IMG/VR virus record: IMGVR_UViG_3300034071_000286
Span: 1-64,000 of that record
Reading direction: 5' to 3' (one strand)
DNA: 64,000 bases
Origin: a virus
Made by a program: the position numbers and the translations under genes. Below are positions 12,982 to 13,709 of the stretch, in pieces. The notes below the pieces were generated by a model, which was given only the letters and a program-made list of their open reading frames with translations, searched no databases and was not told the DNA's origin. Numbering within the stretch: the stretch's first letter is position 1; every line of letters begins with the position of its first letter.

Positions 12982-13057
12982 TGGCTCCCCGAGAAGGACT
13001 CGAACCTCCGACCCAGGCATTAACAGTGCCTTGCTCTACCAGCTGAGCTATCGGGGA
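12982..13057 (-). tRNA. tRNA-Asn(GTT)
   Basis: The minus-strand cloverleaf is complete: acceptor TCCCCGA/TCGGGGA, D stem GCTC/GAGC, anticodon stem AGGCA/TGCCT with loop CTGTTAA (anticodon GTT), and T loop TTCGAGT. The discriminator is G, as expected for Asn, with CCA encoded at 12982-12984. Its 5' end overlaps the last ten bases of the neighbouring coding frame. Confidence 0.95.
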
Positions 13058-13278
13058 ATAACCGTATACTGTACGCCGTACAAATCTCTTAGTTTAGCGT
13101 TAACAACAAAGTTACTCGCCGCTAAGAATATTATACTTATTACCGCTATGAAAATAAAGAGATTCCATATAACATCACCAAGAAGGTTTCTCTTTACTTC
13201 ACAAAATGGTTTCATACACCCCCAAGGGTAGAAGCTAGTTATACGAGAACATGTTCTACACCTGTAATAGGTAGGCAT
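13048..13278 (-). CDS. Zinc-ribbon plus membrane-helix small protein
   Basis: AGGAG seven bases upstream fixes the start at 13278, giving 76 residues: MPTYYRCRTCSRITSF with CRTC, then a GCMKPFC pair that could complete a zinc ribbon, a linker, and one strong membrane helix (IWNLFIFIAVISIIFLAASN). Longer in-frame extension upstream runs through the structured region and is not credible. The stop lies inside the tRNA-Asn 5' end. Membrane-anchored zinc ribbons are uncharacterised in this phage group. Confidence 0.65.
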   Translation of the reverse strand: MPTYYRCRTCSRITSFYPWGCMKPFCEVKRNLLGDVIWNLFIFIAVISIIFLAASNFVVNAKLRDLYGVQYTVIPR

Positions 13279-13332
13279 ATAAACTCCTGTAAAGTTATTC
13301 CGTGGGTGTTGGTGTCTGTTTAAGAACCGTTG

Positions 13333-13490
13333 ATTGAAAATCATTAAAACCCCATTGTGTTTTAATGACCCGGTTCCCCTTGGGCTGGCCTTTCGTCCGG
13401 TTGCGCCGGAAATCTCCATACGGACGGCGTGTATCCAAGGGTGGTGATCTCCCTTACCAACTAGGGTCTTGCGTTCTTTCGCCCAGACCC
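13333..13490 (-). ncRNA. Candidate structured non-coding RNA
   Basis: A stretch of about 160 bases is visibly richer in G+C than its surroundings and packed with complementary segments. GGGTCT/AGACCC pairs at 13464-13469 with 13485-13490, with an inner GCG/CGC. CGTCCG/CGGACG pairs at 13394-13399 with 13421-13426, competing with TCCGG/CCGGA (13396-13410). CCCTTGG/CCAAGGG pairs at 13377-13383 with 13435-13441, competing with AAGGG/CCCTT (13437-13455). A 10-bp hairpin followed by a T run closes the 3' side. No coding frame with a ribosome-binding site fits, and no tRNA, tmRNA or known ribozyme is recognised. Confidence 0.45.
13341..13368 (-). terminator. Possible terminator at the end of the structured region
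   Basis: A perfect 10-bp stem (TCATTAAAAC/GTTTTAATGA, 8-base loop) is followed on the minus strand by TTTTC. The stem is AT-rich, so it may instead be a structural element or processing site. Confidence 0.4.
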
Positions 13491-13502
13491 ACGAAACTTT
13501 AT

Positions 13503-13709
13503 TTAGCCTACGTATGTATACTTCGAAGTCTCACGACCACGAGAATCCTTTGTGGTAACTAGCTTGATGTTTAGACCCTTCTTACGAAGGCTGTAAACTA
13601 GACCATGTGGATTAGCTGCACCGAAACGTGCTGAAATCTGCTTGGCTGTTAGAGCCTGACCCTTAGTCACGAGAGCATTAATAACACGATCTGTCTGAGT
13701 CTTTACCAT
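13503..13709 (-). CDS. Small winged-helix/HTH DNA-binding protein
   Basis: The 68-residue protein reads as a helix-turn-helix: a first helix TQTDRVINALVTKGQA, LTAKQISARFGA as the second helix and NPHGLVYSLRKKG as the likely recognition helix, followed by a wing with KLVTTKDSRGRETSKYTYV. AGGAGAAATATATA precedes the ATG. Such small wHTH proteins occur in cyanophages and may be transcription regulators. The structured RNA follows its stop directly. Confidence 0.75.
   Translation of the reverse strand: MVKTQTDRVINALVTKGQALTAKQISARFGAANPHGLVYSLRKKGLNIKLVTTKDSRGRETSKYTYVG

Follow-up and report, generated by a model that had tools for sequence, protein, structure and literature searches.

A short stretch in the DNA of a T4-like phage, lying between a wHTH-like gene and a zinc-ribbon gene, is crowded with inverted repeats. 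It raises the question of whether these repeats are the trace of an RNA and, if so, on which strand that RNA lies, of what kind it is, and how it might act. The phage is represented by a 97,777-base virus record (IMGVR_UViG_3300034071_000286), the first 64,000 nucleotides of which are here termed the window; its large terminase is closest to those of the Sinorhizobium phages phiN3 and phiM12 (58-59% identity). A sequence-only reading of the window had proposed a structured non-coding region of unknown type that might serve as a switch or regulatory RNA. A real, conserved, structured RNA is almost certainly encoded at this locus. Its fold is conserved, its strand is established, and the family to which it belongs spreads over nine lineages of viral contigs.

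The locus and the strand of the RNA

As the sequence-only reading had noted, strong inverted repeats lie between the two genes, and several are perfect (CCCTTGG/CCAAGGG, CGTCCG/CGGACG, GGGTCT/AGACCC, and TCATTAAAAC/GTTTTAATGA, among others). The description of the region as GC-rich holds toward one side only: G+C is about 50% at the RNA locus and 27-42% in the genes on one side, whereas the tRNA stretch on the other side is similar to the locus. The plus strand was considered as the RNA strand and rejected; its folding z-score is the better one (-3.6 versus -1.2 for the minus strand), but the wobble combinations found across relatives favor the minus strand. When the paired cells are read in the minus sense, they include 21 G-U and only 4 A-C combinations, and the RNA is therefore assigned to the minus strand. 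The minus-strand folding energy is within chance (equaled by 26 of 200 shuffles), so that the case for the RNA rests on covariation among its relatives.

A family of related RNAs in uncultured viruses

The family comprises the window and 18 other virus contigs, all from uncultured viruses (loci in such contigs carry L numbers). Through the upstream neighbor gene, three contigs were found in which the region is identical, and one more, L005/L060, in which the RNA is about 80% identical. When a viral collection was scanned for exact matches to the shared motif GCGAAAGNNCGCAAGACCC and variants of it, related elements came to light in the otherwise unrelated contigs L064, L065, L068, L069, L089, and L098. 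These elements, together with L060 and the window, were used to build a covariance model (R1) of the 110-nt core; the core of the window (13376-13484), itself part of the model, scores 114 bits (E 1.9e-25). Searching with R1 brought up eight contigs that had not entered the model: L118 (E about 1e-8), L128 (E about 1e-9), and L162, L174, L180, L191, L201, and L213 (E 1e-13 to 1e-16). The weakest member scores 46 bits, and the best non-member among some 200 other loci scores 23 bits. Each record that was searched whole holds a single copy.

Other searches returned no further members. A blastn search with seven members against 50,697 phage records gave no real match, and no candidate from pattern scans of bacterial and archaeal genomes qualifies. 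A covariance search of 396 genomes of a Sphingomonas' order found none, with few candidates scored per genome and no positive control. Relaxing the invariant GCAAGACC added no member among 54 new loci (80 of 102 stretches listed).

The RNA is absent from close relatives at the same site. The isolates most closely related to the window phage lack it, as do cyanophages and T4, and the Manatee Spring phage MW202675, near L162 (capsid 94% identical), has no match to it. The Roseobacter phages CRP-3 and CRP-212, whose RNR genes are 80-82% identical, have other sequence in the corresponding gap. In its distribution the RNA behaves as an accessory gene. The gap that follows the RNR gene of CRP-3 measures 226 bases and apparently contains an unannotated small ORF starting MSNPTLTRAFNKG (L319, 2925-3085 of MK613345.1), at the site where L065 has the RNA.

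Architecture of the RNA

All lineages share one architecture (Table 1): a closing stem P1, stems P2 and P3, a pseudoknot, a stem P4 around a three-way junction, a hairpin P7, and the single-stranded UUAAACG. The pseudoknot, of six pairs, joins the P3 loop to the linker just before the P1 3' strand, and the three-way junction inside P4 consists of P5 and hairpins a and b. P2 reads GC[G/U]-RAAGAN-[C/A]GC in most members, with AAGA between P2 and P3, and P3 occurs as CCCU/AGGG, CCCG/CGGG, CCCC/GGGG, and CCUC/GAGG. The loop of hairpin b usually contains GCAA. P4 is interrupted in L180 and the L162 group, and the whole RNA ranges from 138 to 199 nt across the family.

Table 1. Features of the RNA element and its immediate surroundings in the window
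Feature	Position	Strand	Remarks
wHTH-like gene upstream of the RNA	13503-13709	-	PHROG of unknown function
GCTAAATA, T4-type late-promoter-like	13500-13507	-	3 nt upstream of P1; overlaps stop codon of upstream gene; putative function
Whole RNA element, 199 nt	13298-13496	-	P1-to-P1 extent in all members
P1 5' strand TTTCGTGGGT	13487-13496	-	9 versions in 9 lineages, 97% paired; repeat I1
P2 5' strand GCG	13480-13482	-	third pair G-C or U-A
P2 3' strand CGC	13471-13473	-	conserved loop AAAGAN
P3 5' strand CCCU	13463-13466	-	fourth pair U-A, G-C, or C-G; 100% paired
Pseudoknot 5' strand GUUGGU, in P3 loop	13456-13461	-	9 versions in 9 lineages, 100% paired, 0/5000 shuffles; repeat I5
P3 3' strand AGGG	13451-13454	-	followed by conserved AGANNA
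P4 5' strand CCCUUGG	13435-13441	-	8 versions in 9 lineages, 0/5000 shuffles
P5 5' strand GCC	13426-13428	-	opens three-way junction; 9 versions, 100% paired
Hairpin a UCC-GUAU-GGA	13415-13424	-	covarying; absent from L118 and L128
Hairpin b UCCGG-CGCAA-CCGGA	13396-13410	-	9 versions; conserved GCAA in loop
P5 3' strand GGC	13388-13390	-	conserved GAAA just before
P4 3' strand CCAAGGG	13377-13383	-	repeat I3
P7, variable hairpin GAACCG...CGGUUC	13324-13376	-	repeat I7; length differs among members
Single-stranded UUAAACA (consensus UUAAACG)	13317-13323	-	conserved
Pseudoknot 3' strand ACCAAC	13308-13313	-	conserved pairing with P3 loop
P1 3' strand ACCCACGGAA	13298-13307	-	pairs with P1 5' strand
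Zinc-ribbon ORF (76 aa)	13048-13278	-	19 nt downstream of P1; context, outside the RNA

The limits first proposed for the element, 13333-13490, have to be redrawn, as they cut off the 3' strands of both P1 and the pseudoknot, which are visible as repeats I1 and I5. The hairpin and T run that had been taken for its end lie inside it: a scan for terminators finds none, and the segment is an expansion of P7, enlarged in the window phage by an AU-rich inner hairpin that is absent in L060 (80% identical).

Covariation

Compensatory change was counted in two alignments. The first (A5) contains 13 sequences aligned by MAFFT without reference to structure, with 41 pairs scored. Standard combinations fill 82.4% of its paired cells, and double changes occur in 29 of the 41 pairs (92 such cells), values that none of 500 shuffles reached; sliding the partner by one column lowers pairing from 82% to about 50%. 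The second is a hand alignment of 15 sequences, checked letter for letter against the contigs, with statistics calculated from one sequence for each of the nine lineages. Strands pair better with their own partner than with that of another lineage in the pseudoknot (100% versus 59%), P4 (93% versus 70%), P5 (100% versus 45%), hairpin b (92% versus 51%), and P1 (97% versus 61%), and for each of these no shuffle among 5000 did as well. P3 and hairpin a were matched by 10 and 8 of 5000 shuffles, respectively, and P2 is too uniform for such a test to tell anything. Since knowledge of the structure guided the hand alignment, the MAFFT alignment gives the more independent result. Pseudoknot pairing is 75% in the plain MAFFT alignment and 100% in the hand alignment, because some MAFFT rows are off by one there. 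A 16-row alignment (A4), in which L118 and L128 are misplaced, was left out of the counting.

The claim of a structured non-coding RNA of unknown type, which the sequence-only reading had staked on compensatory changes in homologues, is thus strongly supported. A minus-strand open frame (13048-13419) does cover part of the region, as a portion of a protein-coding gene might. Across the nine lineages, however, length changes are not multiples of three and stem substitutions are paired; covariation refutes both a coding origin and chance inverted repeats, and neither deserves more than a trace of credence.

The same comparison bears on the proposal of a switch, in which competing pairings would choose between two mutually exclusive folds. 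The alternatives CGTCCG/CGGACG and AAGGG/CCCTT are indeed present in the window sequence. Their competitors, TCCGG/CCGGA (hairpin b) and CCCTTGG/CCAAGGG (P4), covary, whereas the alternatives are lost in relatives, and a single fold is kept by compensation throughout. Such a switch is exceedingly improbable.

Expression of the RNA

The late-promoter-like element upstream of P1 recurs outside the window. In the window, L089, L118, L128, and L180, five contigs in all, the sequence NNTAAATA (TAAATA) is found 2-5 nt upstream of P1. T4 late promoters consist of TATAAATA, with transcription starting about six bases further on, and this spacing would place the start of the transcript on the first bases of P1. 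The window contains TATAAATA 11 times on the minus strand and twice on the plus strand, several of them shortly upstream of structural genes. At the other end of the RNA, seven T follow P1 directly in L128 and after two bases in L118. A discrete minus-strand RNA, as had been anticipated, fits this anatomy, and from these signals we infer that the RNA is probably both late and discrete.

In L064, L068, and L069, a CTTGC...TAT-like segment upstream of the RNA is shared with Sphingopyxis phage VSN-002. A strict sigma-70 scan upstream of the GC-rich members found no promoter, which counts against the explanation favored below. In VSN-002 itself, a 377-base intergenic stretch (L102, 3015-3391 of MZ127829.1) has the promoter-like segment and the same 5' end, GGCGCGGCGGCG, as these three members, then continues in different GC-rich sequence with no match to R1 or Rfam. 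This stretch is possibly another RNA gene.

Genomic neighborhoods

The genes around the RNA vary widely among members, although gene calls are rough in the GC-rich contigs. A zinc-ribbon gene and genes for tRNA-Asn, -Thr, and -Gly lie beside the RNA in the window, L060, and L201; the zinc-ribbon homologue is directly downstream in L201 and more distant in L060. In L180 the RNA sits in a tRNA cluster, with 12 tRNAs in the locus. It directly follows tRNA-Arg near capsid genes in L174 and L191, and directly precedes tRNA-Ser in L089/L231, with a permuted tmRNA nearby. A glycosyltransferase gene lies downstream in L118 and L128, whereas L065/L226 have RNR upstream and PhoH downstream. In L064, L068, and L069 the RNA follows spanin genes and is itself followed by convergent genes, and in L098 it is convergent to an endolysin gene.

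Two of these contigs contain other structured RNAs. The permuted tmRNA gene in the phage contig of L089 (L231, 299-707, minus strand, IMGVR_UViG_3300025781_000084) matches RF04321 at 390-675 with 99 bits, has the ARAGORN tag peptide VNANFIASNDNDFVAMKMAA, and lies about 0.8 kb downstream of the phage RNA and tRNA-Ser. The tRNA cluster of L180 also includes a DUF3800-IX RNA (L232, 779-845, minus strand; RF02968, 49 bits, above the cut-off).

Proximity to downstream genes is what a cis-acting leader would show, that is, a riboswitch-like or translational control element at the 5' end of short late mRNAs, which would control the following gene upon binding a ligand or protein. Five T4-like contigs (window, L201, L118, L128, and L180) have a small ORF whose start lies 18-20 nt beyond P1, with an intervening Shine-Dalgarno-like sequence in three of them, and this spacing also weighs against action in trans. 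A PhoH-like ORF begins 6 nt after P1 in L065, the seven T after P1 in L118 and L128 resemble an attenuator, and a pseudoknotted core with invariant loops is typical of aptamers. Yet the downstream neighbors share nothing: they include the zinc-ribbon gene, two other small ORFs, PhoH, a capsid-region gene, and the tRNA-Ser gene of L089, and the recognized downstream genes of L064, L068, L069, and L098 are convergent. Riboswitches hold a constant position before functionally related genes, and the genes downstream of this RNA are unrelated or absent; nor is any conserved alternative pairing seen that could be an expression platform. A cis-acting leader is accordingly rather unlikely, and the lack of any downstream gene shared by all members favors action in trans.

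The tRNA genes that lie within a few nucleotides of the RNA in L089, L174, and L191, together with the compact pseudoknotted core and its invariant single-stranded bases, would also suit a ribozyme or RNA-processing element acting on itself or on neighboring tRNA transcripts. Several members have no tRNA in the examined locus, however, and no Rfam ribozyme matches. In the T4-like members cleavage would not be needed, since the likely transcription start coincides with the RNA 5' end. This is a quite improbable reading.

Little more can be said for an orphaned guide or scaffold RNA whose partner, an RNA-guided nuclease or repressor (IscB/TnpB-like) or another bound enzyme, is not encoded with it. 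The size, closing stem, and pseudoknot are similar as a general resemblance, but no HEARO match appears in Rfam and no variable guide segment is seen beside a constant scaffold. The only nucleases recognized beside the RNA are a convergent HNH endonuclease in L068 and, within the tRNA cluster of L180, a homing endonuclease, and the likelihood of this origin is very small.

A probable standalone accessory RNA

The locus is best explained as the gene for a standalone accessory phage RNA, which folds as described and probably works in trans on a putative partner. In T4-like phages the RNA would be synthesized late, from a promoter with its start at the first bases of P1, and the paired ends would keep it stable. 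Acting in trans, which is itself somewhat better than an even prospect, would most likely involve binding a host protein or ribonucleoprotein of the infected cell. The RNA may be gained and lost as accessory cargo, as phage tRNAs are.

It is uncommon to find new RNA families that are so complex and show firm covariation, and where a pseudoknotted core has invariant loops, these usually denote a specific binding or catalytic job. The RNA recurs in T4-like and several other phage types, often beside tRNA genes and in one case close to a tmRNA encoded by the phage, and from this neighborhood its function could bear on the phage takeover of translation. It is possible, as a tentative suggestion, that the RNA is a new device (protein-binding, ligand-sensing, or catalytic) carried with tRNAs and acting on host translation or defenses late in infection. 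The consensus, model, and coordinates make this one testable. Phage structured RNAs as such are already known.

Comparison with known RNA families

No tRNA or Rfam family fits the locus. Among the members searched, nothing in Rfam 15 matched at the position of the RNA, either above the gathering cut-off or with a low E-value, the sole hits being chance-level ones to eukaryote families, and tests with ARAGORN and Rfam for tRNA and tmRNA found only neighboring genes. RNase P, group I intron, tmRNA, HEARO, and Y RNA were also considered, again with no Rfam match. Nothing was found in the literature that describes the family.

Two RNA motifs of T4-like cyanophages were compared directly. The manA RNA, pseudoknotted and about 190 nt long, occurs in T4-like cyanophages and aquatic metagenomes (PMC2864571). 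It is like the phage RNA in size, pseudoknot, and setting, yet differs in sequence and arrangement, and the two are distinct in both search directions: the 192-position manA model (RF01745), which detects its positive controls in P-SSM2 and P-SSM4, finds nothing at E values up to 10 in 15 RNA-bearing records, and R1 has no hit in two manA-carrying phages. The wcaG motif, also from T4-like cyanophages (PMC2864571), is only 98 nt; its 98-position model (RF01761) finds one true hit in S-SRM01 as a positive control and gives weak chance hits elsewhere, with none at the RNA in any member.

T4 itself encodes two stable RNAs, C and D (species 1 and 2), in its tRNA cluster; they are small and structured, measure 119-139 nt, and have no clear function. 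R1 finds nothing in T4, and the phage RNA has no sequence match to either. GOLLD and ROOL, too, often lie near tRNAs. These ornate phage-linked RNAs without known function (PMC12286853) are several times longer than the phage RNA and have no Rfam match here. Set against Rfam 15, the phage RNA fits no catalogued family, and it appears to be new at the level of the RNA family. With a conserved secondary structure and compensatory change in phage homologues, it would belong to the broad kind of phage structured non-coding RNAs, and it resembles the T4 stable RNAs or GOLLD in setting while being a member of neither.
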